Below, piece by piece: positions 22,954 to 49,772 of a stretch of 64,000 nucleotides of DNA. The DNA is from Candidatus Acidulodesulfobacterium acidiphilum (GTDB lineage Bacteria; SZUA-79; Acidulodesulfobacterales; Acidulodesulfobacteraceae). Location of the stretch: NCBI GenBank assembly GCA_008534395.1, contig SHMQ01000006.1:1-64000 (forward strand), written 5' to 3'. The position numbers and the translations under genes are program-made. Under the pieces are notes generated by a model. That model worked only from the letters and a program-made list of their open reading frames with translations, was not told the origin of the DNA and ran no database searches. Position 1 is the stretch's first letter; each line of letters begins with the position of its first letter.

Positions 22954-24891
22954 TTATCCGACGAATATAGGCCGTTTTGAAAGCATATCCGGCAATATAA
23001 GTTTTCTGTAAGGCATCCCTTTTGTTTCGGCTTTAATTTCTTTAATAAAATCGGCTTTGTCTATATTAAAATTCTTTCTTTCTTTATATCTGTTTCTAAT
23101 CGATAAAACTCCGCTTTCAGCTTCTTTTTGTCCTACGACGGCGATGTACGGAACCCATTCTTCTTCTGCAAACATTATCTTTTTGCCTAAGCTGAAATCC
23201 CTGTCGTCGATATCCGCCCTTATCCCCGAACCGCTAATTTCTTCTTTTAATTTAACCGCAATATCGTAAAACTTTTCCGATACCGGTATAATCCTGACCT
23301 GAGTGGGGCTTAACCATAATGGAAAAACCGGAATATCTTTTTTAAGGGCTTCTTCTATTATCAGATACATCCATCTTTCGATAGCCCCGACCGAAGAATG
23401 ACATATTATACATCCGGCTTTTTCGCCTGTTTCGGTAGTAAAATTCAAGCCGTATCTTTTGGCGTCTTCAACGTCGAGCTGAACCGTAGAAAGCTGGCAG
23501 GAACCGTTTACCGAGTCGACGCCTTGAAATTCGTGTTTAAGCGCCCAGTAGTGCTTCATTTTAGATAAAACTTCGATGAGAGCAGGTTTTTTAGAGTATT
23601 TTAACAGTTCTACGATTTTATCTTTATATTTTTCGTAATATTCTTTGACTATTCTAAAAACTACGGCGTATTCTATTCCGGTGCCTTCCGCAAGGTCGGC
23701 GTAAGTCCTGTAAAGAGCATGGTATTCGTTAAAACCTTCTTCGAGATTAAGGCAAAAACTGTGTATATCCGGCATAGTGAAGCCTCTCAGCCTTCTTAAA
23801 CCCGCTAATTCGCCGCTTTTTTCATACCTGAAACTCTTAGAAATTTCGTAAAATCTTAACGGAAGATGTTTATAGCTCATTTTAGTATCTTTAAGCATAG
23901 AAAAAAGTCCGAAGTCTCCAGCAAACCTCAATACGAATTCTTTGGAAGGAGCAAATCCGCCGGTTTCTGATTTTTCGTCCGGCACTAAAATAGAATAGTG
24001 CCTTTCGTGAAACGATTCGCCCTGCCCTTTTATCTCCGGTTTATTCCAGTTGTATATAAGCGGAGTTTCTATTTCCATACAGTTCAAACGGTTTAAAGCT
24101 ATATCTTCCGCCCAATCGGATAAAAGTTTAAAGAGCAAAGTTCCTTTCGGATAAAAGCGCAGATGCCCTGAATCGGAATTTTCTTCGTGGTCGGCAATCT
24201 CTAGACGCCTCATGGCGGAAACCGAAGGCGGCGTTTCTCCTTCTTTTATTTTAAATTCTTCGTATGCGATTACCTTTCTAAGCGACGGAAAATCTTTGAG
24301 CGATTTATCGTCTAAGACGCTTGCGTTTTTTAAATCAATTTTTGTTTCTTTGCCGTCGAAATTTAATATAAAAAATTCGCTTTCAACGTCTTTAACTACG
24401 TCTTCCCTTGTTTTTTTAGTTCCGTATGCTTTTGTCTGCGTATTTGGCGAACTTTCGGCCGGTAACTCGGTGATATGCCTCGACGATTCGCTTAACGGAT
24501 GACCCTTGCACGATATTTTAAAGCTCTTATACCATCCGAAAGGCGCTCTGTAAACCGGATAAAACGCCGCTATTTCGTTTTTTAACGATTCGAGCGTAGA
24601 AACTGCAAGTCTTGGGTCGGCAAGGCTATTGGAAAGATGTGCATAAGGATAGACTATAATTATGCGCGGTTTTAATTTGTCGGCTTTATCTTTGATTTGC
24701 GTAAAAGCCTGTTTTACTATATCTTCGTTGTTTTTAGCGTCTGCTTTTTCTACGGTGCAAAAAACTACTAACGGCTCTTCAAAAAAGTTGCCTGTATCCT
24801 TAACGGCAGATTTGTCTATTTCTTCGGCAACCGGAGTTTTCCCTGTTAAAGAATAGTTAAAATCGTCGGCATGAATTATTAATAGCTGCAT
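22954..24891 (-). CDS. thrS: Threonyl-tRNA synthetase with archaeal-type N-terminal editing domain
   Basis: 645 residues. The first 140 residues are not the usual bacterial TGS/N2 editing module. They read like the archaeal D-aminoacyl-tRNA-deacylase-like domain: start MQLLIIHADDFNYS, then VYPYAHLSNSLADP, APFGWYKSFKISCKGHPLSE (key PFG-YK-F----GHP). The class II catalytic core follows (motif 2 near LRRLRGFTMPDIHSFC; KAGCIICHSSVGAIERWMY near motif 3) and then the anticodon-binding domain (LWLSPTQVRIIPVSEK). The enzyme charges tRNA-Thr; the N-domain removes misattached serine. It begins 24 bases after flxA ends, apparently at the end of the hdr-flx operon, and precedes tig. Confidence 0.93.
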   Translation of the reverse strand: MQLLIIHADDFNYSLTGKTPVAEEIDKSAVKDTGNFFEEPLVVFCTVEKADAKNNEDIVKQAFTQIKDKADKLKPRIIIVYPYAHLSNSLADPRLAVSTLESLKNEIAAFYPVYRAPFGWYKSFKISCKGHPLSESSRHITELPAESSPNTQTKAYGTKKTREDVVKDVESEFFILNFDGKETKIDLKNASVLDDKSLKDFPSLRKVIAYEEFKIKEGETPPSVSAMRRLEIADHEENSDSGHLRFYPKGTLLFKLLSDWAEDIALNRLNCMEIETPLIYNWNKPEIKGQGESFHERHYSILVPDEKSETGGFAPSKEFVLRFAGDFGLFSMLKDTKMSYKHLPLRFYEISKSFRYEKSGELAGLRRLRGFTMPDIHSFCLNLEEGFNEYHALYRTYADLAEGTGIEYAVVFRIVKEYYEKYKDKIVELLKYSKKPALIEVLSKMKHYWALKHEFQGVDSVNGSCQLSTVQLDVEDAKRYGLNFTTETGEKAGCIICHSSVGAIERWMYLIIEEALKKDIPVFPLWLSPTQVRIIPVSEKFYDIAVKLKEEISGSGIRADIDDRDFSLGKKIMFAEEEWVPYIAVVGQKEAESGVLSIRNRYKERKNFNIDKADFIKEIKAETKGMPYRKLILPDMLSKRPIFVG

Positions 24892-24915: not shown

Positions 24916-25740
24916 TTAGAAATCGTTGGGCAGGCTTTCAAGCTCTTTTGCCGTAAACACCGGGCCGTCTTTGCATACGTAAACGCTGCCAACGTTGCAT
25001 CTCCCGCATTTTCCTAGTCCGCATTTCATTCTGTTTTCAAGAGTAGTTATTATATTTTCTTTACTGAAACCCATTTTTTCTTCAAGAGTTTTTAAAGCAA
25101 ACTTAATCATAATCGGAGGTCCGCAAACCACCGCTATGCTGTTTTCGCCTTTAAGAGGAAGCTGTTCCAGAATAGTAGGAACGAAGCCGACTTTTCCTTT
25201 CCAGTCGGGAGTTTCTCCGCCGGGATCTACCGTTACGACAAATTCCGTATCTTTATGATTTTTCCATTCGTCGAAAATATTTTTATACAAAAGGTCGCCT
25301 ACGGTTCTAGCGCCGTATAGTATAGTAATTTTACCGTATTTATCGCGCTCGTCGAGACAATATTCCATAATAGACTTAACCGGAGCCATGCCTATGCCTC
25401 CGCCGACGAAGACGATATCTTTGCCGTGCATTTTCGACGTATCGAAATAGTTTCCGTAAGGACCCCTGAAAGCAATTTTATCGCCTTCGTTTAATCCGTT
25501 TATACCGGTCGTAGCACGTCCCGAAGTCCTGAAACTGAATTCAAAATATTCTTTTCTTAAAGGTGAGGATGAAAAACCGAAAGTAGATTCGCCTTCTCCT
25601 ATCAGCGAAAATTCGCCGAACTGACCTGGAAGAAAATCTATGCTTTTTCCGTCTATGGTAAGGCGTATCGTTTTAGTGTCCGCAGTCTCCTGAATAATTT
25701 CTTTTATTTCCGCCAGTTTAGGCAAATAGATATTTTCCAT
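24916..25740 (-). CDS. flxA: FlxA-like FAD/NAD(P)-binding oxidoreductase subunit
   Basis: 274 residues, ferredoxin-NADP reductase fold. The FAD-binding barrel has the RxxS-type motif region (FRTSGRATTGINGL), the nucleotide-binding part begins VFVGGGIGMAPVKSI, and a C-terminal 2Fe-2S cluster is bound by CGLGKCGRCNVGSVYVC. The order matches sulfhydrogenase gamma/AsrB proteins and FlxA of the flxABCD-hdrABC loci. Such subunits are the NAD(H) entry site. It lies 58 bases after the AsrA-like gene. In this context it should oxidise NADH and feed the Hdr complex, but direction and partner are inferred. Confidence 0.85.
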   Translation of the reverse strand: MENIYLPKLAEIKEIIQETADTKTIRLTIDGKSIDFLPGQFGEFSLIGEGESTFGFSSSPLRKEYFEFSFRTSGRATTGINGLNEGDKIAFRGPYGNYFDTSKMHGKDIVFVGGGIGMAPVKSIMEYCLDERDKYGKITILYGARTVGDLLYKNIFDEWKNHKDTEFVVTVDPGGETPDWKGKVGFVPTILEQLPLKGENSIAVVCGPPIMIKFALKTLEEKMGFSKENIITTLENRMKCGLGKCGRCNVGSVYVCKDGPVFTAKELESLPNDF

Positions 25741-25798
25741 TAACTATATGCTCCCGCTATATAATATTAATATTAAATTATATTTTTTATACTATTAT

Positions 25799-26821
25799 TT
25801 ACGCCATTTCGGCTAAATTTTTCGCAACTTCTTTTATATCTATGTCTTCGGGACAGTTTCTCGAACATCTGCCGCACCCTACGCATAAATATTTATCGAA
25901 TTTCTCGCTGTAAATTTTGAACTTATGCATTAATCTCTGTCTGTATCTGTCGCCCTGAGTAACCCTCGGATTATGGCCCGAAGTATGAAGAGTGAATATC
26001 CCGAACTGGCATGAATCCCAGTTGCGGATCCTCCTGCCTTCTTTAAGGTTGCCTTCGTCCTGAATATCGAAACAGTGGCATGTAGGACATGTGTAAGTAC
26101 AGACTCCGCAGCCTATGCACGATAAAAATCTTTCCTGAAAATAGTTATGCTCGAAATTTTTATCTAAAAAGCTTTTAGTCTTTTCTATTTCAAAAATCTT
26201 TTTCCAATCTTTATCTGCCGGAACTTTGTCTTTTGTAGTTTCGGTAAATAAATCCGAATATTTTTTTATAAGGTTTAGCCCTTTCTCTCCGGTAACTATA
26301 GCAAAATATTTATCGCCCGATTTTTTAAGAAGAACGTCCGAACCGTAAGAACTTTCAGGAGAAAGCTGCATTTCAGTGCAGAAGCAATAATTATCTGGTT
26401 TTTCGCAGGCTATAGAAATTATGGTCAGATTTTTAAATCTTTCGTTAAAGAATTCGTCCTTATAATCCCAGTTAAAAACTTTTTCCATTATGGGGCCTGC
26501 TCCGGCATCGCAAGGCCTTCCCCCGAAAATAACCCGTTTTTCGTTTGCGCCGGCAATACTTTGCAGGCCGTCTTTAATATCGGTATCGACTCCCGAAATC
26601 GAATACTCAAAAATCGTTTCGGTTTTAGGAAGAAGATATTCTTTATAAGACATCTTAGGCAATAAAATATCTAGGTTTGCTTCTTCAAACCTGCTTATTT
26701 TTCCGTAAAAAGTATCGCCGTCCTTATTGGTCGGCGCTATAACCTCATAGTTATCGGTTATCATCCCGTCAACAAATTTTTTAAGATTTTCCGAGGAAAT
26801 TTCAAAATATTTTTCTTCCAT
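25799..26821 (-). CDS. flxB: FlxB-like 4Fe-4S protein (AsrA/sulfhydrogenase beta type)
   Basis: 340 residues. A large N-terminal domain of the AsrA/HydB type (with GGRPCDAGAGPIMEKVFNWDY, key GxRPCD) is followed by two C-terminal 4Fe-4S motifs: CIGCGVCTYTCPTCHCFD and CVGCGRCSRNCPEDID. It is an electron-transfer subunit between the FAD/NAD protein and the Hdr complex. It is co-directional with its neighbours, 27 bases after the next 4Fe-4S gene. The label FlxB rests on domain order and neighbourhood. Confidence 0.82.
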   Translation of the reverse strand: MEEKYFEISSENLKKFVDGMITDNYEVIAPTNKDGDTFYGKISRFEEANLDILLPKMSYKEYLLPKTETIFEYSISGVDTDIKDGLQSIAGANEKRVIFGGRPCDAGAGPIMEKVFNWDYKDEFFNERFKNLTIISIACEKPDNYCFCTEMQLSPESSYGSDVLLKKSGDKYFAIVTGEKGLNLIKKYSDLFTETTKDKVPADKDWKKIFEIEKTKSFLDKNFEHNYFQERFLSCIGCGVCTYTCPTCHCFDIQDEGNLKEGRRIRNWDSCQFGIFTLHTSGHNPRVTQGDRYRQRLMHKFKIYSEKFDKYLCVGCGRCSRNCPEDIDIKEVAKNLAEMA

Positions 26822-26848
26822 TATAAGCCGTCTCCAATATCTTATTTC

Positions 26849-27754
26849 TTATTTTATAAAGTCGTTGAAATCGCTTTCGCTGAATACGCCGAAAACGGGT
26901 TTAGCATTGATATCCAGTCCTGATTTGTAGCCAAAAAGATTATATACGTCTCTTGCCATTTTTTCGTTTATCAGCATAAGCGGAATGTTCACGGGGCATG
27001 CTCTTTCGCACTCTCCGCATCCTATGCACCTGCCGGAAAGATGATAAGCTCTTATCATATTCCACTGTGCATTTCCGGGTTCTTCCGAATTGGTATCTAT
27101 CCACTGAGGCATATTTTTTTCTACTATGCATCTTGAGCAGAAGCAAAGCGGGCAAGCCTGCCTGCAGGCATAACATTTAATGCATTTATCAAACTCTTTT
27201 GCCCAGTAAGCATTTTTTTCTTCGGTACTCATAGCCTCTAATTTTTCTATCTCGGCATAAGGCTTAACGCTTCCCGACAGGCTCAATTCCGGTTCCTCGG
27301 TTTCAACAAGAAAATCGTAAAGAACGGGCGTATGTTCCTGACATACGAGGCATTTATCGTACACCGTAGTTTCCGAAACTTTTGTTTCGCCTTTATCTGC
27401 AAGATTTTGTTTTATTACGCCGTTGCACTGCATGCCGATTATTTTTATGTTGTCTCTCGATAATTGATACTCCTGAATTAAGGTATTAACGGCTTTTTCG
27501 TCGCATCCTTTAACGGTTATTCCTATTTTTCCGTATTTCTTAACTTCCTGTTTTTTTAAAAATACGGCTAAATCTTGAACGGCGTTATGGCTGAACGAAA
27601 GCTTTTCAACCTCTTCCGGTTTAGTTATAAAAACGGGTCTCATTCTTTGCGGATTAGAACCTTTGGTATATCCTATTATAAGATTCACTTCGCCGCTTTC
27701 GAGAAGATCTTTTGCTATTTTTTGCAGTTTTTCGTCTGTTTTTGTGTTTGCCAT
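26849..27754 (-). CDS. flxC: FlxC-like 4Fe-4S protein
   Basis: 301 residues. An N-terminal alpha/beta domain of about 150 residues (with ITVKGCDEKAVNTLIQEYQL, key KGCD) resembles the beta subunits of F420-type hydrogenases and formate dehydrogenases. Two ferredoxin motifs follow: CIKCYACRQACPLCFCSRC and CIGCGECERACPVNIPLM. An extra CLVCQEHTP pair precedes them. It sits 11 bases downstream of the MvhD-like gene and is likely the second Fe-S subunit of the Flx module. Exact equivalence to FlxC is inferred from position. Confidence 0.78.
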   Translation of the reverse strand: MANTKTDEKLQKIAKDLLESGEVNLIIGYTKGSNPQRMRPVFITKPEEVEKLSFSHNAVQDLAVFLKKQEVKKYGKIGITVKGCDEKAVNTLIQEYQLSRDNIKIIGMQCNGVIKQNLADKGETKVSETTVYDKCLVCQEHTPVLYDFLVETEEPELSLSGSVKPYAEIEKLEAMSTEEKNAYWAKEFDKCIKCYACRQACPLCFCSRCIVEKNMPQWIDTNSEEPGNAQWNMIRAYHLSGRCIGCGECERACPVNIPLMLINEKMARDVYNLFGYKSGLDINAKPVFGVFSESDFNDFIK

Positions 27755-27765
27755 AAATATATCCT

Positions 27766-28248
27766 TTATTTTTTTGTAAATATATCCGTCGTTTTATCCG
27801 GCAGAGATTTAATTTTATCCGTAAATTCGTTAATTACGGCAACCCATTTGTTTCCTTCCGATGCGCTTATCCAGGAAAATTCCACCCTGTTTAAATCTAC
27901 TCCGAGATAACCGAGTAAATCTCTAAACGTCGCATATTTTCTTCTTGAATGATAATTTCCGCTGGTATAATGGCAGTCGCCGGGGTGACAGCCGGAGACC
28001 AAAACTCCTTTTGCACCTTTTTTAAAAGCTTCTACTATAAAAAGCGGGTCTATTCTTCCGGTACACGGCAGTTTTATAACTCTTACGTTGTCGGAATACT
28101 TCATTCTGCTCGTTCCGGCAAGATCCGCGCCGTTGTAAGTACACCAGTTGCAGACGAAAGCTATTAACCTTGGATCGCTTTGACTGCCGGCATTAGTTGC
28201 CGCCGTTCCTTCTTTTTGTTTTTCCTTTTCTGCGTTCATATCTTCCAT
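27766..28248 (-). CDS. flxD: FlxD/MvhD-type iron-sulfur subunit
   Basis: 160 residues from the ATG at 28248; a 2Fe-2S MvhD-like domain with conserved cysteines in FVCNWCTYNGADLAG, KLPCTGRIDP and VSGCHPGDCHY. MvhD-type proteins link an electron-input module to HdrA. The open frame extends to a TTG at 28314, but that lies inside a family B palindrome; the ATG at 28248 has AAAGGAG about ten bases upstream and fits the family length. It is located between hdrA and flxC, as expected for the adaptor joining the Flx and Hdr halves. Confidence 0.88.
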   Translation of the reverse strand: MEDMNAEKEKQKEGTAATNAGSQSDPRLIAFVCNWCTYNGADLAGTSRMKYSDNVRVIKLPCTGRIDPLFIVEAFKKGAKGVLVSGCHPGDCHYTSGNYHSRRKYATFRDLLGYLGVDLNRVEFSWISASEGNKWVAVINEFTDKIKSLPDKTTDIFTKK

Positions 28249-28284
28249 GTCTGAAAGACTCCTTTTTTTCCGTTTTGTGGTAAG

Positions 28285-28302
28285 GACGGATTGAATTCCG
28301 TC
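28285..28302. repeat. Family B-like palindrome, copy B1
   Basis: GACGGA, TTGAAT, TCCGTC: a 6-bp stem around a core related to GAATTCAATTC. It lies between hdrA and flxD. Confidence 0.6.
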
Positions 28303-28320
28303 AATACGGTTCAATTTTGT

Positions 28321-28351
28321 GGGAGTACCGGAATTAAATTCCGATACTCCC
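28321..28351. repeat. Family B palindrome, copy B2
   Basis: GGGAGTA and TACTCCC arms around CCGGAATTAAATTCCG, with one A-C mismatch that becomes a G-U pair in minus-strand RNA. It lies six bases after the hdrA stop codon, so it may be a 3' stabilising or terminating hairpin within the operon. Confidence 0.7.
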
Positions 28352-28357
28352 TATAAG

Positions 28358-30340
28358 TTATACTGCTAACGATTTAATTTCCGCATATATCTGGTCGTCC
28401 ATAAAGCCTTTGACGTCGATAGATTTAGAGAAGCAGGCGTTCACGCATGCTCCGCATCCGGTGCAAAGTCCTGGATTTACGTTAGCAACGACTTTTACGA
28501 CGTTGCCGTTTCTGTCTTTAATTTCTTTTCTGGTAATAGCGTTATAAGCGCAGACTCTCTGGCAGTAGAAACAGGCAACGCAAGTCGCTTCGTTAACGCT
28601 CGATATAGTTCCTTCGACCTCGTACTCGCTTTTGGAAAACAAGCCGAGTATTTTTGAAGCCGCCGCAGAACCCGAAACTACCGATTCAGGAATGTCTCTG
28701 GGTCCCTGTGCCATACCGGCAAGAAATATGCCTGCCGTAGAAGATTCCGCAGGTCTCAATTTAGGATGAGATTCGGTTAAGAAACCATATTTATCGTATG
28801 ATATTCCAAGCATTTGAGCAAGTTTGTCGGAACCTTTTTTGGGTATTACGCCGGTTGCAAGAACAACCATATCGGCAGCTATTTCTACCTGATTCCCGGA
28901 AAGAGTATCGGCTCCTTTTACTATAAGTTTTCCGTTGTCTTCATATATTTTAGATACCCTGCCTCTTAAATAAACCGCTCCGTCCTGCTCCATAGTTCCT
29001 CTTACGAACTCTTCGTATCCCTTGCTTGTAGATCTTATATCTATATAAAAAACATAGCTTTGCGAGCCGTGAACCTTATGAGCAAAAAGTTTTGCGTGCT
29101 TTGCCGTGTACATACAACAAACTTTGGAACAATACGGAACTCCTTTTTCGGGGTCCCTCGAACCTACGCACTGAACAAACACTATAGTCTGAGGCGTTTT
29201 TCCGTCAGAAGGTCTTTTTATTACGCCCTCGGTAGGTCCGGAGGCAGAAAGAAGCCTTTCAAACTGCAATCCCGAAACCACGTCTTTATATTTTCCGTAA
29301 CCGTATTCGCCGTACATGGAAGTTTCCATGAGGTCGTATCCGGTTGCGGCTACTATTGCGCCGACCGTTTCTTCTATTATTTCGTCCTGCATGCTGAAAT
29401 CTATACACTTTGGACCGCAGGCGTCGAAACATTTCTGACATTTTCCGCCTTTTTTAAAATGAAGGCATACGGAGCGGTCTAACACGGGCACTAATGGCAC
29501 CGCCTGAGGAAACGGAACGTATATTGCGGTTCTTTCCGACAAGTTTAGATTAAACTCGCTTTTAACGTTTTTGTGCATAGGACAAGCATTCCAACATTCG
29601 CCGCATCCAGTACAGTCTTTTTCGACGACGCTTCTTGCCTTTTTCTTTATTTTTACTTTGAAATTTCCTATATAGCCGGAAACGTCTTCTATTTCGGAAT
29701 ATGTATATAATTTAATGTTCGGATGCTGGTTTGCTTCGACCATTTTCGGGGTCATTATGCAGCTGGAACAGTCTAAAGTAGGAAAGGTTTCGTCGAGCTG
29801 TATCATTCTGCCGCCTATAGACGGTTCTTTCTCGACTAATATAACTTCTACTCCGCCGTTCGCGATATCTAAGGCGGCCTGTATTCCCGAAATGCCTCCG
29901 CCTATAACCAGCGCTTTTTTATTTAATGGAACTCTGACGTCTTCTATGGGCTTATCTCTTTTTACCTTTTCAACCATCATTTTCATTAAATCGACGGCTT
30001 TTGCGGTAGCTCTTTCTTTATCTTCGTGAACCCATGAAACCTGTTCCCTGATATTTGCAATTTCTACGAAATACGGATTCAATCCTTCTTTTACCGCAGC
30101 TTTCCTAAATGTGTTTTCGTGCATATGAGGCGAACATGCGGCAAGAACGACGCCCGTTAAATTTTTCTCTTTAATTACGTTCCTCAAGCTGTTCTGTCCC
30201 GGGTCGGAACACATATATTTGTAATCGACGGCGCTGACTACTCCGGGTATTTTTGCAGCTTCCTCTCTTACTTTTTCTACGTCGACGGTGCTCGCTATAT
30301 TAGAACCGCACCAGCAGACAAACACGCCTATTCTTGACAT
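28358..30340 (-). CDS. hdrA: HdrA, flavin-containing heterodisulfide reductase subunit
   Basis: 660 residues. The N-terminal domain (GVFVCWCGSNIA, YMCSDPGQ, ACSPHMHENTFR) is typical of HdrA; then FAD-binding VIGGGISGIQAALDIANGG, Fe-S motifs CTGCGECWNACP, a Cys-rich middle (KCQKCFDACGPKC) and CSKVCCM, and C-terminal ferredoxin motifs CVACFYCQRVC and CTGCGACVNAC. HdrA is the flavin subunit where electron bifurcation is thought to occur. GAGAGGT precedes the ATG. It stands between hdrB (142-base gap) and flxD. Confidence 0.95.
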   Translation of the reverse strand: MSRIGVFVCWCGSNIASTVDVEKVREEAAKIPGVVSAVDYKYMCSDPGQNSLRNVIKEKNLTGVVLAACSPHMHENTFRKAAVKEGLNPYFVEIANIREQVSWVHEDKERATAKAVDLMKMMVEKVKRDKPIEDVRVPLNKKALVIGGGISGIQAALDIANGGVEVILVEKEPSIGGRMIQLDETFPTLDCSSCIMTPKMVEANQHPNIKLYTYSEIEDVSGYIGNFKVKIKKKARSVVEKDCTGCGECWNACPMHKNVKSEFNLNLSERTAIYVPFPQAVPLVPVLDRSVCLHFKKGGKCQKCFDACGPKCIDFSMQDEIIEETVGAIVAATGYDLMETSMYGEYGYGKYKDVVSGLQFERLLSASGPTEGVIKRPSDGKTPQTIVFVQCVGSRDPEKGVPYCSKVCCMYTAKHAKLFAHKVHGSQSYVFYIDIRSTSKGYEEFVRGTMEQDGAVYLRGRVSKIYEDNGKLIVKGADTLSGNQVEIAADMVVLATGVIPKKGSDKLAQMLGISYDKYGFLTESHPKLRPAESSTAGIFLAGMAQGPRDIPESVVSGSAAASKILGLFSKSEYEVEGTISSVNEATCVACFYCQRVCAYNAITRKEIKDRNGNVVKVVANVNPGLCTGCGACVNACFSKSIDVKGFMDDQIYAEIKSLAV

Positions 30341-30482
30341 AATATTTTACCTCTCGTATGTAACTTAATAAATAATCTTAATTTCCGATTTTAGGGAAAA
30401 CCTAAATATTCAATTTTATGAAATTAATTTCATTCAGTTTACTGCGAAACCGGAATTTATTTACATAAATAATCTATACTGC

Positions 30483-31361
30483 TTATTTAGATAATTCTTC
30501 TATTTTTTTTAGTACTCTGTCTGCCGCAACCATATGTCCGTCTATCGCAAGGTCTTTAGGATTAATTCCGAAAGAAAGGCCCAGAAGCTCCGTAATAAAC
30601 AAAACCGGCAGACCTATTTTTTCTTCGTATTTTCTTTCTATTTCTTTCTGCCTGACGTCTAAATTTGAATGGCACAGGGGGCAGGCGACTACTACGACGT
30701 CTGCTCCGTGATTTTTGGCATCGTACAAAACTTTTCCCGTCAAAGCCATAACTACGTCCGGTTTGGAAAGAGAATTAATAGCCCCGCAACATTCGGTTTT
30801 ATAAGAATAGTCGACCGGCTCCGCTCCGGTAAGAGAAACCAGCTCGTCCATGGTAACGGGATTTTCGGGATCGTCGAACTGCATAACTTTAGGAGGTCTT
30901 ACTAATAAACAGCCGTAATACGATGCAACCTTAAGTCCCGCAAGCGGTTTTTTAACCATCGATTTTATCTTGTCTTTGCCGACTATTCCTATGAGGAATT
31001 CGAGCATGTTATTTATGCTCATTTCGGAATCATAGGGCATTTCCAAAGAATTGGTTATTTTCTTTTTCAGTATATCGTCTCTTTTTAGTTCATAATCGGC
31101 GTTTTTGAGCCTGTTGGAGCATGCGGCGCATGGAGCAAGGACGGATTCGAAACCGTCCTTTTCGGCTATGGCAAGGTTTCTTGCCGGAAGAGCTATAGCA
31201 AGATTATGGTTTATGCTGTGGGCGGCTGAAGCTCCGCAGCAGTTCCAGTCGGGAATCTCCTTGACCTCTATGTTCATAGCTTCAAGAATTTTTAACAACG
31301 AAACTTCATATTCAAAAGACGTTCCTTTTAACGAACATCCGGGGTAATATGCTAATTTCAT
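30483..31361 (-). CDS. hdrB: HdrB, CCG-domain heterodisulfide/disulfide reductase subunit
   Basis: 292 residues with two CCG domains: YPGCSLKGTSFEYE ... WNCCGASAA ... CAACSNR, and YYGCLLVRP ... TECCGAINSL ... CPLCHSNLD. These bind the noncubane [4Fe-4S] clusters that reduce a disulfide in HdrB of methanogens. In bacteria with FlxABCD-HdrABC the substrate may be a DsrC-type trisulfide/disulfide or another thiol; no dsrC is in this window. AAAGGAG precedes the ATG, 25 bases after hdrC ends. Confidence 0.94.
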   Translation of the reverse strand: MKLAYYPGCSLKGTSFEYEVSLLKILEAMNIEVKEIPDWNCCGASAAHSINHNLAIALPARNLAIAEKDGFESVLAPCAACSNRLKNADYELKRDDILKKKITNSLEMPYDSEMSINNMLEFLIGIVGKDKIKSMVKKPLAGLKVASYYGCLLVRPPKVMQFDDPENPVTMDELVSLTGAEPVDYSYKTECCGAINSLSKPDVVMALTGKVLYDAKNHGADVVVVACPLCHSNLDVRQKEIERKYEEKIGLPVLFITELLGLSFGINPKDLAIDGHMVAADRVLKKIEELSK

Positions 31362-31386
31362 ATTTTTTAATTTCTCCTTTAACTTT

Positions 31387-31935
31387 TTACTCGAAATCCT
31401 TAAAAATTTTTGCTATTTGATTTAAGCCTGAAAGATTTTCTCCGTGCATTTTAAGTTTTCCTTTTTCAAACATTTTTGGAGCCAAAAACATATCTCTGAA
31501 AAGATGTTTTGTTTTTAATTTATATTTGCCGACCAATTCAAGTTCGAAAATTCTTCCGTGCGACTTGACGTTTTCCAGAAAAACTTCGTGAAACATCTGT
31601 ACTTCTTTTTCCGTTTTTGAAGTTATTCCTTTTCTTTCGGCTATTTCCCTAAGAACGTCCATTATTCCGGTAACTTCAAATCCTTTCGGACATCTGGTCG
31701 AACAGGTATTGCACGAAACGCACAGCCATATCGTTTTAGAATTTAAAACGGTATCTTCCATTCCAAGTTCGGTCATTTTTATAATCTGGTTTGGAGTATA
31801 ATCCATTTCAAAATTAACGGGGCATCCCGCCGAACATTTGCCGCATTGATAGCACTTGGATAGTTTGTCGTGCAGCATAGACTCGACCTGTGCGACAAAA
31901 TTCCGCCTGTTTTGTTCATTTAAAACCGTTTTCAT
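31387..31935 (-). CDS. hdrC: HdrC, 4Fe-4S subunit of heterodisulfide reductase
   Basis: 182 residues with two ferredoxin motifs, CYQCGKCSAGCPVNFEMD and CVSCNTCSTRCPKGFEV, and a helical C-terminus: the normal HdrC layout. It passes electrons from HdrA to HdrB. It is the first gene of the hdrC-hdrB-hdrA-flxD-flxC-flxB-flxA series, the Hdr half preceding the Flx half; in Desulfovibrio the flx genes come first. Upstream lies a 146-base AT-rich gap after rimO. Confidence 0.92.
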   Translation of the reverse strand: MKTVLNEQNRRNFVAQVESMLHDKLSKCYQCGKCSAGCPVNFEMDYTPNQIIKMTELGMEDTVLNSKTIWLCVSCNTCSTRCPKGFEVTGIMDVLREIAERKGITSKTEKEVQMFHEVFLENVKSHGRIFELELVGKYKLKTKHLFRDMFLAPKMFEKGKLKMHGENLSGLNQIAKIFKDFE

Positions 31936-43663: not shown

Positions 43664-44356
43664 ATGGATTATAATATCATTGAAAAAAGAATAGGATATT
43701 CGTTTAAGGACAGGTCGTTAATAAACCTTGCTTTTACGCATAAATCCGTAAGCGCCGAGAAAAACTATGAAAGATTGGAATTTCTCGGCGATGCGGTTAT
43801 AGGCGCTATAGTAACGGAATATCTTTATAAAAATTACATAAATTTAAACGAGGGAGAACTTTCCAAATATCGGGCGTCGCTCGTAAGACTGGATGCTCTT
43901 TATAATATAGCTCAAAATATTAAGATTTCCGAGTTTATAATTAAAGAACGCGATAACGGCGCCGCAGAGTTAAAAGCTAAAAATAAAAGAATAATCGGCA
44001 ATGTTTACGAAGCCGTGATCGGAGCGGTATTTCTCGACTCATCCTTTGAAAAAACAAAAGAAATACTTATAAAACATATTTTAAAAGTTACTCCGGATAT
44101 CGATGAAGAAATCTTAAAAAATTCAGATTTTAAAACCGAGCTTCAGGAGATGGTTCAAAAAGAAACGGGCAGAACGCCGCGATATTTTACTATTAACAAA
44201 GAAGGTCCAGACCACAATGCCGTTTTTACGATATGCGTTAAAATAGACGACGAGATTTTTGCTTTAGGGCGCGGCAATACAAAAAAAGATGCTGAACAAA
44301 ACGGAGCCAAAATTGCAATTAAGAAATTTATGGAGAAACTAAATGATAAAAAGTAA
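43664..44356 (+). CDS. rnc: Ribonuclease III
   Basis: 230 residues. The signature ERLEFLGDAVIGAIV and VYEAVIGAVFLDS carry the acidic catalytic residues, and the C-terminal dsRNA-binding domain runs DFKTELQEMVQKETGRTP to AIKKFMEKL. It processes rRNA precursors and double-stranded RNA. Its stop overlaps the start of der by 14 bases. Confidence 0.96.
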   Translation: MDYNIIEKRIGYSFKDRSLINLAFTHKSVSAEKNYERLEFLGDAVIGAIVTEYLYKNYINLNEGELSKYRASLVRLDALYNIAQNIKISEFIIKERDNGAAELKAKNKRIIGNVYEAVIGAVFLDSSFEKTKEILIKHILKVTPDIDEEILKNSDFKTELQEMVQKETGRTPRYFTINKEGPDHNAVFTICVKIDDEIFALGRGNTKKDAEQNGAKIAIKKFMEKLNDKK

Positions 44357-45689
44357 AGATTTTTTCGTACTTATAATCGGCAGGCCTAATGTAGGAAAAT
44401 CGACGATATTTAATAAAATAACGGGGAAAACTTCGGCTTTGTCGTCTAAAATCGCCGGTACTACTTTAGATTTAAATATAAAAAAAATATCCTTTAACGG
44501 AACGGATTTTTTTATTTCAGACAGCGGAGGGTTTAACGTCTCGCCCGCAAACGAAACAGAAAAAAAAATCAGGGACAAAGTTTTCGAATATTCAAAAAAA
44601 GCCGGCTTAATTTTATTTGCGGTCGATTATAAAAGCGGGTTTTTACCGGAAGACAAAGAGATTTTTAAACGCCTTAAAAAAAACGGCTCTAATATTATCT
44701 TGGTAATAAATAAAGTCGATTCTCCCAAGGATGCAAACGGAGCGGAAAGCGAATTTATAGGTCTCGGCATAAAAACGGTTTTAACCGCAAGCGCGGAAAA
44801 AGGAACGGGCATATATGAAATTCTCGAAAAAATAGCCGAAGAAATAAATATTAAAAAACCGGTAAAACCTAAAAAAACCGGCGAAGAAAACGAAAATTCT
44901 TTTAAAATAGCCATAATCGGAAGACCTAACAGCGGAAAATCTACTTATATAAACACCTTGTTAAAAGAAGACCTGCTTTTTACCGACGACAAACCCGGCA
45001 CCACGCGCGATTCCATAGACACGTATATCAGATATAAAGGGCGTTCGATAACTTTAGTAGATACTGCAGGCATCAGAAAAAAAAATAAACTTGATTTAAA
45101 TTCCGAAGCCTTCCAAAAACAGAGCCTTAATCAAATAAAGAGGGCGGATGTGGTAGTTCTTTTTATAGATATAAATTCGGATGTTACGCATGAAGACCTG
45201 TCATTACTGAGAAGAATAACGCTTGAAAAAAAACCCGTCATAATAGCATTTACGAAGTGGGATTTAAAAGAAAAACTGCCGGAAAACGCAGTACAGTTAA
45301 AAAATGAAATTAAGTATAAGTTAAAAGAGTTTTCCGGAATGCCTTTCGTATATATTTCATCAAAGACGAATAAAAATTTAAACAAGATATTAGATATGTC
45401 TATGGAAATATTCGATTCAAAAAGCGTAAAAATAAAAAAGAAAGATTTAAACAGATTCATCGAAACCGCGAAAACTGAGCCGCGCAGCGGCAGGATTTAT
45501 AAATACATAAGCTACGGCGTACAAAAAGAAGGAGAAAAAATTCCTACTTTTATATTTTTTACGGGCAATAAAGGAAAAATATTTACTATGACGGATATAA
45601 AGTTTTTAAGAAACAGCATAAAAGAAGCATTCGGTATAAAATCGAACGTCGAAGTCGTAATGGAATATAAAAAATACGACGCCGATTAA
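44343..45689 (+). CDS. der: GTPase Der (EngA)
   Basis: 448 residues with two tandem GTPase domains: G1 motifs GRPNVGKST and GRPNSGKST, G2/G3 regions (AGTTLDLN; KPGTTRDSIDT; VDTAGIRKK), G4 motifs NKVD and TKWD, and the C-terminal KH-like domain (YISYGVQKEGEKIPTFIFF). It acts in 50S ribosome assembly. The first-domain G3 reads SDSGGF instead of DTAG/DTPG; tolerated in some Der proteins. It overlaps rnc by 14 bases. Confidence 0.96.
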   Translation: MIKSKDFFVLIIGRPNVGKSTIFNKITGKTSALSSKIAGTTLDLNIKKISFNGTDFFISDSGGFNVSPANETEKKIRDKVFEYSKKAGLILFAVDYKSGFLPEDKEIFKRLKKNGSNIILVINKVDSPKDANGAESEFIGLGIKTVLTASAEKGTGIYEILEKIAEEINIKKPVKPKKTGEENENSFKIAIIGRPNSGKSTYINTLLKEDLLFTDDKPGTTRDSIDTYIRYKGRSITLVDTAGIRKKNKLDLNSEAFQKQSLNQIKRADVVVLFIDINSDVTHEDLSLLRRITLEKKPVIIAFTKWDLKEKLPENAVQLKNEIKYKLKEFSGMPFVYISSKTNKNLNKILDMSMEIFDSKSVKIKKKDLNRFIETAKTEPRSGRIYKYISYGVQKEGEKIPTFIFFTGNKGKIFTMTDIKFLRNSIKEAFGIKSNVEVVMEYKKYDAD

Positions 45690-45705: not shown

Positions 45706-45999
45706 CTATTTTTTATTTGTAAGCTCTTCTATCTTTGCTTCTAATTTTTGGATTTTTTTGGTCAGCTCTTCTACGTCGTAAGTAGAAGCGAAATTCATTT
45801 CGTCAAGCAGAATATCGGCGACTTTTTCTTTTATAGACTTAAAAATAACGCCTGATTCATATTTAACGGTTTCGATAATCTGGTCTGCCGCTTCCCTGCT
45901 CTCTTCATCCGATATATCGACATAATCGTCTAATTTTTCCTGTGCGATAATCGAAAGACCTTTAAGTGCTTTAAGAACTACGTTTATAGTATCGGACAT
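45706..45999 (-). CDS. Small all-helical protein co-encoded with sdhABE
   Basis: 97 residues, predicted almost entirely helical: an amphipathic N-terminal helix (INVVLKALKGLSIIAQEKL), a central acidic helical part and a C-terminal heptad-like coiled coil (VEELTKKIQKLEAKIEELTNKK). No cysteines and no membrane helix. It starts 28 bases after sdhE ends, the last gene of that operon. I do not recognise the family; phasin-like or peripheral anchor proteins have similar shape. Because type-E succinate dehydrogenases lack normal membrane anchors, a role in tethering the complex is an appealing but unproven idea. Confidence 0.7.
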   Translation of the reverse strand: MSDTINVVLKALKGLSIIAQEKLDDYVDISDEESREAADQIIETVKYESGVIFKSIKEKVADILLDEMNFASTYDVEELTKKIQKLEAKIEELTNKK

Positions 46000-46027
46000 T
46001 TTAACCTTCCTCTTTTTATTTTTTTTA

Positions 46028-46915
46028 TTATATTTCGTTCTGCCTGACTTTGGCCATTACGCCCCTAAGCGAAACGTTATGCCTCGAAAAACCCATTTCG
46101 GCATAATCGGCGCCTAAGGCTATGCCTATTAGCTGAGGCAAATGAAGTATAGGCAGAGATAATTTTTTGTTTATGTTTTTTGCCGCAACCGTCTGATAAG
46201 TATCTAAACTTAAGTGGCATAAAGGGCAAGGGGTAACCATGACGTCGGCATTTTTCTCCTGAGCCTCGTAAATGGCGTTGCCCGCAAGCGAAGTAGAAGT
46301 TGATTCGTTTACGAGTATCGTTTGAAATCCGCAGCATTTGGTCCTTCTGACATAAGATACCGGTTCGCCGCCCAGAGCCTTAATCAGCTCTTCAAATCCT
46401 TGAGGATTTTCCACGTCGTCGAACTTAACTGCGCTTGACGGCCTGAGTATATGGCATCCGTAAAACGGGGCTATTTTTATTCCTTTCAGGCTTTTAACCG
46501 CTTTTTCTTTTAATTTATCGAATCCTATGTCGTCTCTTACGGCATATAAAATATGCTTCACTTTAACTTTTCCGGTATATCTCAGACCTATTTTAGCAAG
46601 ATATTGGTTTGTTTTTTCTAATGATTCGGGATTATTTATAAGTTCTTCGTTTACCTCGCTGAGAGTCAGAGTGCAGGTGTTGCATATAGTCATTATATCG
46701 AGCCCTTCTTTTTCCGCCAAAGCAAGGGTTCTTCCGTTTATAAAAAGCTTTAAGTTTTTATCGAAGCCGTCGATAACTCCGCCTCCGCAACATGATGCCT
46801 CAGGCATAGGAATTAAATTTATGCCTAATTTGCCTGCAATAAATTTTGTGGCGTTATCGAGTTCTTTGCCGCTTTCCTGAGCTACGCACCCCGGATAATA
46901 AGCATATGTAATCAT
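46028..46915 (-). CDS. sdhE: SdhE-type CCG-domain subunit of succinate dehydrogenase/fumarate reductase
   Basis: 295 residues with two HdrB-like CCG domains: YYPGCVAQESG ... ASCCGGGVIDG ... CNTCTLTL, and YGCHILRPS ... TKCCGFQTILV ... CPLCHLSLD. This subunit replaces the heme-bearing membrane anchors in type-E complexes (Sulfolobus SdhC/E, Campylobacter MfrE). Its start overlaps the sdhB stop by four bases. The position after sdhA and sdhB sets it apart from the HdrB at 30483-31361, with which it shares ancestry. Confidence 0.92.
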   Translation of the reverse strand: MITYAYYPGCVAQESGKELDNATKFIAGKLGINLIPMPEASCCGGGVIDGFDKNLKLFINGRTLALAEKEGLDIMTICNTCTLTLSEVNEELINNPESLEKTNQYLAKIGLRYTGKVKVKHILYAVRDDIGFDKLKEKAVKSLKGIKIAPFYGCHILRPSSAVKFDDVENPQGFEELIKALGGEPVSYVRRTKCCGFQTILVNESTSTSLAGNAIYEAQEKNADVMVTPCPLCHLSLDTYQTVAAKNINKKLSLPILHLPQLIGIALGADYAEMGFSRHNVSLRGVMAKVRQNEI

Positions 46916-47910
46916 AATTTATCCTCCAAGTCCAGCTCTTTATATGCAAGCCGAATATCTTCCATATCTTTTATTAATTTATGCCTGAAAGGCGGTATCT
47001 TCCCCTTTAGGCCTGCGCCGAACGCAACGGGCAGATCGTTTAAAAGCCCGGTAACGCCTCCGGATTCAAATGCAACTTTTATTTCGTCTAACCTTCCCGT
47101 TTCGCCTATAGATCTTGCTATAGAAACCACATGCTTTGAGCCTGACGAAAAAGTAATGGAATTTTTAACCGATTTTTCATGCAGCCTTACTATCGATTTT
47201 ACCGGAGAAATGCCTTTCGGGCAGAACTGTTCGCATGACTGGCAGTGAACGCAGTCCCAAAAACCGTTAGGCATAGAACCGTTTACTAAACGCGAACCGT
47301 TTTTATCGTTATCTCTCGGATCTTCGGCATATCTGTATAATTTAGCGAGAGCGGCAGGTCCAAGATAGTCTTTATTGCCGACTACTCCGCCGCATTCGGA
47401 ATAGCAACATTCGCATAAAATGCAATTGGGCGTATCTTCGTTTCCGGTCAAATTTTTAAACTCCGATTTATCGTAAACCGGCTGACTGATTTTTTCGCCT
47501 TCTTTTAATGCGTGGAAACGGTTATGCGCTTCGTCTTCCCTCTGTCCGAGCAGATAAGGTTTTATAGCTTTTATTTTATCGAAAAAGACCTCCTGATCGA
47601 CGATTAAATCGCGAATTACGGGCATATTGGCAAGTGGTTCGACGTTAAGTATTCCAAATTTATCGATTTCTAAACTAACCTGCGTTTTACATGCAAGCTT
47701 TGTTATTCCGTTTATTTTCATCGCGCAGGAACCGCAGATAGCGCTTCTGCATGACCTTCTAAAGCTGAGCGTTCCGTCAAGCTCCGATTTTATTTTTATT
47801 AAGGCGTTTAAAACCGTCATACCCGGATAGTCTTCTACCGTATATTCTTTGTAGTACGGTTTTTCGTCGGTTTCCGGATTAAATCTGTATGCTCTTACCT
47901 TGAATTCCAT
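46912..47910 (-). CDS. sdhB: Succinate dehydrogenase/fumarate reductase iron-sulfur subunit (type E)
   Basis: 332 residues, longer than classical SdhB (about 240). Cluster motifs: 2Fe-2S CRSAICGSCAMKINGITKLAC (read as C-x4-C-x2-C...C), first 4Fe-4S CILCECCYSEC, and CVHCQSCEQFCP for the third cluster. The third motif has an additional cysteine (C-x2-C-x2-C-x3-CP), so a [4Fe-4S] rather than [3Fe-4S] cluster is expected, as in type-E enzymes. A 75-residue C-terminal extension follows. It lies 26 bases after sdhA. Confidence 0.94.
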   Translation of the reverse strand: MEFKVRAYRFNPETDEKPYYKEYTVEDYPGMTVLNALIKIKSELDGTLSFRRSCRSAICGSCAMKINGITKLACKTQVSLEIDKFGILNVEPLANMPVIRDLIVDQEVFFDKIKAIKPYLLGQREDEAHNRFHALKEGEKISQPVYDKSEFKNLTGNEDTPNCILCECCYSECGGVVGNKDYLGPAALAKLYRYAEDPRDNDKNGSRLVNGSMPNGFWDCVHCQSCEQFCPKGISPVKSIVRLHEKSVKNSITFSSGSKHVVSIARSIGETGRLDEIKVAFESGGVTGLLNDLPVAFGAGLKGKIPPFRHKLIKDMEDIRLAYKELDLEDKL

Positions 47911-47936
47911 TATATTTTTTCCTCGCTATTAATACG

Positions 47937-49613
47937 TTAATACGTCCTCGGCTGAGGTTTAAATTTAGTTATCGCAACTTCGGAAAAATCGAATTTTATG
48001 TTTCCGTTTCCGTCTAATGTCGCAAGCGTATGTTTGAGCCAGTTGGAATCGTCTCTTTCCGGAAAATCCGTCCTGTAATGAGCTCCCCTCGATTCCTTCC
48101 TGAGTATAGCTCCTCTAGCGATTACTTCGGCTATAAGCAGTATATTGCTAAACTCGAATGCTTCTACGATATCTGTATTAAATGTTTTCGATTTGTCGTC
48201 TATTCCTATATTTTTTGCGCGTTCTTTGAGTTCGCTTATTTTATCTAAAGCCTTTTTCATGGCATTTTCTTCCCTGAATACCCCGACGTCCGCTCTCATC
48301 TCTTCCTGAAGTTCGGATTTTAAAAGGCCGTGTCTTTCTTTTCCCGACGATTTTTTTAATTTTTCGAATTTTTCTTCGTCTCTTTTTATCGCCGATTCGT
48401 CGAATTTTCTGTCTCCGGCGGCAGATTTAAGATATTCGGCTATGTCTATTCCCGCCCTTCTGCCGAATACTACCGTATCGAGAAGGGAATTTCCGCCGAG
48501 TCTGTTTGCTCCGTGGACGCTGACGCAGGCAGACTCGCCTGCCGAATAGTAACCTTCTATTACGGTTCTTCCGTTATAATCCGTTTTAATTCCGCCCATA
48601 GAGTAATGAGCGCCCGGTCTAATAGGAATAGGCTCGTGAATAGGATTAACGCCTTCAAAATCTATAGATAACTGCATAATCTGAGGTAGTCTTTCCATTA
48701 TTCTTTCTTTGCCGAGATGCCTTATATCTAAAAGAATTGCTCCGTCGACGCCCCTGCCTTCGTTTATTTCGGTCTGCTCCGCTCTTGCAACCACGTCTCT
48801 TGGCGCAAGTTCCATAGCTTTAGGAGCATATTTAGACATAAAGCGGACGCCGAGCGAATTAAGCAGATAAGCGCCTTCTCCTCTTGCTCCCTCCGTTACC
48901 AATATTCCGGTGCTTTTAAGCGTAGTTGGATGAAACTGTACGAATTCCATATCCATCAGCGGAACTCCGGCATTAATAGATATCGCCATGCCGTCTCCGG
49001 TATTTATTAACGCATTGGTATTGGAAGAATAAACCTGTCCGTAACCTCCGGTAGCGAATAAAACCGCCTTTGCGGCAATACCCTCGAATTTTCCGTTTTT
49101 AATATCGTATGCCACTACGCCGCTGACTTTTCCATTATCGGTAAGCAGGCTTGTAACGAAATATTCATACAAAATTTTGGTTTTATATTTAAGTACGTTG
49201 TCGAACAATCCGTGCAGCATCATATGTCCCACGGCATCCGCATAGTAGCAGGAACGAGGGAAACTTTGTCCGCCGAAAGGCCTCTGTGCTATGCCGCCTT
49301 TATCGTTTCTGTTAAAAACGACGCCCATGCTCTGAAGTTCAAGTATGTTTCCGGGGGCTTCGCTCGTCAGTATTTCTATGGCATCCTGGTCGCCGAGATA
49401 ATCGCTGCCTTTTACGGTATCGAAAAAATGGGATTCCCATGAATCGTTTTCGTCAAACGCGGCGTTGACTCCGCCTTGAGCCGCTCCCGAATGGGAACGC
49501 GTAGGATAAACCTTGCTGACTATTACGACATCTATGCCTTTTTTCCTAAGTTCTACGGCCGCCCTTAATCCCGCAAGTCCGGCGCCGACAATAACAACGT
49601 CATGTTTTAACAT
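47937..49613 (-). CDS. sdhA: Succinate dehydrogenase/fumarate reductase flavoprotein subunit
   Basis: 558 residues. FAD-binding start VVIVGAGLAGLRAAVELRKKG; the flavinylated histidine is in RSHSGAAQGGVNAAF (His about 43); substrate-site motifs QFHPTTL, RPGAHYSMGGI and ANRLGGNSLLDTVVFGRRAG are intact. No Tat signal, so the flavoprotein is cytoplasmic, unlike MfrA of Campylobacter. It is the first gene of sdhA-sdhB-sdhE-orf97. Direction of catalysis in vivo cannot be read from sequence. Confidence 0.95.
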   Translation of the reverse strand: MLKHDVVIVGAGLAGLRAAVELRKKGIDVVIVSKVYPTRSHSGAAQGGVNAAFDENDSWESHFFDTVKGSDYLGDQDAIEILTSEAPGNILELQSMGVVFNRNDKGGIAQRPFGGQSFPRSCYYADAVGHMMLHGLFDNVLKYKTKILYEYFVTSLLTDNGKVSGVVAYDIKNGKFEGIAAKAVLFATGGYGQVYSSNTNALINTGDGMAISINAGVPLMDMEFVQFHPTTLKSTGILVTEGARGEGAYLLNSLGVRFMSKYAPKAMELAPRDVVARAEQTEINEGRGVDGAILLDIRHLGKERIMERLPQIMQLSIDFEGVNPIHEPIPIRPGAHYSMGGIKTDYNGRTVIEGYYSAGESACVSVHGANRLGGNSLLDTVVFGRRAGIDIAEYLKSAAGDRKFDESAIKRDEEKFEKLKKSSGKERHGLLKSELQEEMRADVGVFREENAMKKALDKISELKERAKNIGIDDKSKTFNTDIVEAFEFSNILLIAEVIARGAILRKESRGAHYRTDFPERDDSNWLKHTLATLDGNGNIKFDFSEVAITKFKPQPRTY

Positions 49614-49772
49614 TTATAACCTCTATTATTTTAACAATTCTTGGCGGCGGCAGACTTCATCCCGCCGTTTAAATCGATTGATTTTTATTATAAGAATACG
49701 GTTTTTGATATTATAGGATAAACGTTTAAAATTTGCAATAAATTTTTTTAACCCAAATCCCGATTTAGGGTT

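Follow-up and report, generated by a model that had tools for sequence, protein, structure and literature searches.

Among complex II enzymes, those of type E include the SQR of Acidianus and Sulfolobus and the MFR of Wolinella and Campylobacter. They have no haem anchor and instead contain SdhE, an HdrB-like CCG protein. A second [4Fe-4S] cluster in SdhB together with a ten-cysteine SdhE is characteristic of the class (PMC2680327, PMC3578206). The association of type-E enzymes with the membrane has been credited to SdhE itself, through its amphipathic parts (PMC2680327, PMC10238741), and no structure of a type-E complex II had been solved as of a 2023 review (PMC10238741). How SdhE meets the membrane is a matter of conjecture.

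Small proteins called SdhF are known from two settings. In the Acidianus SQR, SdhF is described as a second, hydrophobic subunit, whose small gene accompanies the type-E sdh operon. Mycobacterial SdhF, a transmembrane helix of 3 kDa, belongs to a dihaem (type A) enzyme (PMC7447783) and resembles the protein discussed below in name and small size only.

Here, we analyze an sdhABE locus within a 64,000-nucleotide stretch of DNA from Candidatus Acidulodesulfobacterium acidiphilum (hereafter the window). We find that the enzyme itself is of a known kind. The new part is a small, lineage-specific phasin-like companion gene, which distinguishes this operon from known type-E SdhABE systems.

An ordinary type-E SdhABE operon

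Four minus-strand open reading frames are present where the preliminary description placed them (Table 1). By the sequence features of the first three, this is an sdhABE operon for an ordinary type-E (CCG-anchor) succinate:quinone oxidoreductase that faces the cytoplasm, in agreement with the earlier assignment. Quinone-linked succinate or fumarate activity is predicted from this class assignment.

Table 1. Features of the sdhABE locus and its surroundings (positions within the window).
Feature	Position	Strand	Evidence or remark
sdhA, flavoprotein subunit, 558 aa	47937..49613	-	TIGR01812, 795 bits, over cut-off
sdhB, iron-sulphur subunit, 332 aa	46912..47910	-	TIGR00384, 236 bits, over cut-off
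sdhE, HdrB-like, two CCG domains, 295 aa	46028..46915	-	PF02754, E 2.5e-29
Phasin-like small protein, 97 aa, last gene of presumed operon	45706..45999	-	28 family homologues
Promoter-like site TTGCAA-17-TATAAT, ~97 bp upstream of sdhA	49710..49738	-	Candidate only
der (name by eye)	44343-45689		Convergent neighbour of the small gene
moaC (name by eye), 161 aa			Upstream of sdhA

The third-cluster motif of SdhB, CVHCQSCEQFCP, contains C220, C223, C226, and C230. C223, previously highlighted as an extra cysteine, is indeed present, but it is not extra for the class: it is invariant in an alignment with other type-E proteins, and a fourth cysteine occurs in all 71 SdhB sequences that were readable beside sdhE among 80 public sdhE loci. 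The pattern CxxCxxCxxxCP is exact in 68 of these and has its final P replaced in three. We therefore dropped the fourth cysteine as a novelty, since it is universal in the type-E loci examined. The long C-terminal region of SdhB is likewise as in other type-E SdhB proteins.

SdhE carries two PF02754 domains, with ten cysteines arranged in two CX~31CCGX~34CX2C motifs, and stands in the place of the haem-binding SdhC/D, as had been proposed. A hydropathy scan of SdhE detected no segment of transmembrane hydropathy (maximum KD19 1.31). It is a full-length homologue of HdrB, subunit B of CoB-CoM heterodisulfide reductase (PDB 5odc, 7bkb), matching the HdrB chains in 5odc at E 3.4e-83, although its gene is partnered by sdhA and sdhB rather than by hdrA and hdrC. 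Its scores against the MFR SdhE model NF042965 (221 bits) and the HdrB model TIGR03288 (236 bits) are both below the equivalog cut-offs. SdhA contains the flavinylation motif SHSGAAQGG (His41) and starts MLKHDVVIVGAG, where no Tat signal was found, in contrast to MFR. All three MFR equivalog models (NF042982, NF042952, and NF042965) score below cut-off. The absence of a Tat signal on SdhA and the sub-cut-off MFR scores thus rule out the periplasmic MFR variant.

The sdhE gene overlaps the stop of sdhB by 4 nt, and the small gene follows sdhE after 28 nt. A second promoter-like site (46056-46027) lies directly before the small gene and would allow its separate expression; the total count of promoter-like sites in the window is at chance level. 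In one other genus of the family (g5, genome G019), moaC upstream of sdhABE is replaced by genes that resemble, by eye, soxY and soxZ.

A separate hdrABC set lies elsewhere in the window (27766-31935). It belongs to a minus-strand region (24916-31935) with the appearance of an electron-bifurcating Hdr cluster in which HdrA2 is split. The HdrA2-like gene (660 aa) has its C-terminal part encoded as a separate 182-aa MvhD/VhuD-like gene, and the region also encodes HdrB and HdrC homologues and sulfhydrogenase beta/gamma-like (or AsrA/AsrB-like) proteins. An adjacent minus-strand gene (22954-24891) encodes a threonyl-tRNA synthetase whose best model is PRK03991 (655 bits, over cut-off), which we take to be the archaeal type, unusual in a bacterium.

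A conserved small gene behind sdhE

The small reading frame is, by its sequence conservation, a real gene. It has 28 homologues that are 66-99% identical, with dN of 0.06-0.22 against dS of ~1.3 or more, and an AGGAAGG ribosome-binding site is visible by eye ~6 bases before the ATG. Invariant segments comprise LKA-KG, AQE-LDDYV, SD-ES, and KEK--DILLDEM-FA--YD, together with the coiled coil.

We searched 61 genomes, 30 of them from the family of the window, and found the small gene in 28 of the 30; matches outside the family were at chance level. In all 28 it is the next gene after sdhE, in the same orientation, at a distance of ~25-280 nt. The preliminary description had suggested looking for the gene after sdhE in relatives. 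Of the 29 family genomes with sdhE, 28 show this arrangement, which also bears out the positional analogy to archaeal SdhF. The remaining genome of the 30, G026 (78% complete), is without sdhE, the small gene, and der. No copy was found elsewhere in the 28 genomes, apart from a partial one at a contig edge (G021:C17:108-242; 71% identical over residues 52-96), which could reflect either fragmentary assembly or duplication.

This adjacency by itself is weaker evidence than it appears. Genes from ~38.6 kb to 53.7 kb, a region that spans der, sdhABE, and moaC, are largely collinear in the other genera, so adjacency alone would be expected. Evolutionary rate is more discriminating. Between the window and G019, dN is 0.079 for the small gene, 0.061 for sdhE, and 0.104 for sdhB, but 0.278 for der and 0.335 for rnc. 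The small gene thus evolves about as slowly as sdhE and sdhB, whereas its syntenic neighbours der and rnc change 3-4 times faster, and this points towards a functional tie with SdhABE. We regard the rate as the best evidence for such a tie, albeit indirect. The operon is not alone in evolving slowly: moaC is intermediate and nearer the sdh genes, with a dN of 0.171 between the window and G016, where the small gene has 0.160.

The preliminary description had assigned the small protein to no known family. We find instead that it is, at the level of distant homology only, a divergent phasin-like protein with three predicted helices. It matches TIGR01837 (E 5.4e-6; 26.5 of the 94.7 bits required) and PF05597 (E 1.4e-4; 22.3 of 28.8 bits), missing both cut-offs. 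We aligned eleven phasin-like proteins from other phyla. Profile-profile comparison with this alignment gives a probability of 89% (E 2.3e-6; 20% identity over 66 residues), and an HMM search with it finds the small protein at ~1e-8 among the ORFs of the window, the match covering residues 28-95. Shared with the TIGR01837/PF05597 proteins are this significant profile match over residues 28-95 and an architecture of a hydrophobic N-terminal helix, an acidic middle helix, a short 'FAxxxD' turn, and a C-terminal coiled coil. The sub-threshold scores, a conserved LDDYVDISDEES segment, and strict linkage to sdhABE set it apart.

AlphaFold2 places helices at residues 2-29, 32-73, and 76-95 (pLDDT 76); their packing is uncertain because pTM is 0.37. 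No PDB entry was matched significantly by sequence, and a Foldseek search of the model against the PDB returned nothing at E <= 0.001, only generic helical bundles. The last 22 residues form a regular coiled-coil heptad. The protein had been described as amphipathic and coiled-coil: the gene and the coiled coil stand, but amphipathicity is mainly that of the coiled coil, and the N-terminal helix is hydrophobic (H 0.57) with a moderate moment (0.31-0.37).

Phasin-like proteins without a link to sdh occur commonly across many phyla: TIGR01837 was matched in 57 of 99 sampled genomes, nearly always below cut-off. The genome that contains the window encodes a second phasin-like protein of 132 aa, conserved in the family (G000:C1:36485-36679; L061, L176) and 24% identical to the sdh-linked protein. 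Its gene sits between rplS-like and acylphosphatase-like genes, with a trmD-like gene nearby. Over the same distance this paralogue is less conserved than the small protein (70% versus 87%).

SdhABE without the small gene

In one 99%-complete family genome, G018, sdhE is present and the small gene is absent. Here sdhABE occupies a new site, followed by a sat-like gene. The old site has closed up, so that der adjoins a homologue of the window's 50317-51972 gene. No remnant of the small gene was found at the old or new sdh site, or anywhere else in the genome. In an SdhABE tree rooted on other phyla, G018 is nested within the family (support 62/98), and two genera, g6 and g2, branch before it. 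Because both carry the small gene, its loss in G018 is the likelier direction, although tree support is modest. SdhABE can be kept without the small protein, since G018 retains sdhABE alone; we infer that SdhABE benefits from the protein but does not require it.

The moved sdhABE (L073/L084; G018:C60) lies beside genes that by eye resemble sat, apr/qmo, and, upstream, dsrE/dsrC/dsrMK. This neighbourhood hints that this SdhABE may be linked to sulphur respiration.

Beyond the family, we inspected 74 type-E loci from other phyla, 64 of which have at least 450 bp after sdhE, and in none was the small gene or any phasin-like gene found next to sdhE. These loci represent at least 12 phyla (Nitrospirota 14, Thermoplasmatota 13, Actinomycetota 12, and others). 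Several Nitrospirota loci (within L092-L113), and L106 from Nitrospinota or a relative, often have a cupin-like gene after sdhE, encoding a conserved protein of 105-112 aa with the motif GHxHxxQDKVYxVLEGxG. This is another lineage-specific companion gene of type-E loci.

Possible roles of the small protein

We give a probability of about 0.5 to the small protein being a lineage-specific, soluble, phasin-like accessory of SdhABE rather than its anchor. Its C-terminal coiled coil would mediate oligomerisation, and its hydrophobic N-terminal helix would shield a hydrophobic face that is exposed on SdhE or on assembly intermediates. The protein would then act as a chaperone, solubility, or oligomerisation helper of SdhABE, and the subunit that anchors the complex would be something other than the small protein. 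Chaperone-like activity and coiled-coil tetramers have been reported for true phasins (PMC5658603). The slow evolution of the gene could alternatively stem from high expression or from another conserved partner. More tentatively, the protein may be a fourth subunit of type-E complex II, a phasin fold recruited to hold or organise the complex on a hydrophobic surface, either the membrane or an oligomer interface. In the papers that we found, no such role is described for phasin-like proteins, and no relevant paper turned up on a phasin linked to fumarate reductase operons.

The preliminary description had put the small protein forward as a candidate anchor, analogous in position to archaeal SdhF. 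In its most specific form, the N-terminal helix would bind lipid as a peripheral tether and so hold SdhABE at the membrane, which we now consider rather unlikely. The operon position of the gene, its conservation at an sdh-like rate, and the helix itself (H 0.57, moment 0.36) are consistent with tethering. So is the difference between the Wolinella MFR, which has no SdhF and is partly or loosely membrane-bound, and the tightly bound Acidianus enzyme with SdhF (PMC2680327). Unlike SdhF as described, however, the protein is acidic and soluble-looking (pI 4.55, net charge -8.5), and no transmembrane segment was found in it (maximum KD19 1.12). Residues 5-22 reach 0.96 on a HeliQuest-type index, for which 0.68 is the usual threshold, and peripheral membrane binding by this segment is possible, but 12 of 36 window proteins equal that score. 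In addition, the polar side of the helix and the loop LDDYVxxSDxxS are conserved like the hydrophobic side, and lipid binding needs neither. The gene is also missing from the 74 other type-E loci, and G018 lost it while keeping SdhABE. An anchor role is therefore possible, without specific support.

It is also conceivable, though we would not favour it, that the small protein is a phasin-like passenger with an unrelated job, such as a coat of lipid or sulphur inclusions or a general stress chaperone, held behind sdhE by regional synteny. The collinear stretch from ~38.6 kb onwards, which takes in der, sdhABE, and moaC, would explain its position, and the many phasin-like proteins without an sdh link, including the one encoded beside rplS/trmD-like genes in the same genome, fit this explanation, as does the loss of the gene in G018 when sdhABE moved. 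A passenger would not be expected to evolve at the rate of sdhE and sdhB, 3-4 times slower than its syntenic neighbours, and the loss in G018 coincides with the departure of sdhABE; the gene was not left behind beside der. Far less probable is a PHA granule phasin, the finding that the preliminary description had named as refuting an anchor. Distant likeness to TIGR01837 and PF05597 speaks for it, but the scores fall far under the curated cut-offs. PhaC_N (PF07167) was found in none of the 30 family genomes, with the control found, and the class III synthase model TIGR01836 was over cut-off in none of them (one weak sub-cut-off match, 18 bits). With no convincing PHA synthase in the family, the small protein is better called phasin-like than a PHA phasin, and the granule reading is largely refuted.

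If the small gene proves to be a passenger, the locus is ordinary. As an accessory of SdhABE, the small protein would be a conserved, lineage-specific companion that offers a handle for co-purification of a type-E complex II. Phasin-like proteins outside a PHA setting are widespread and of little-known function, and a strict link to one enzyme, as seen in this family, is a rare clue to what they may do.
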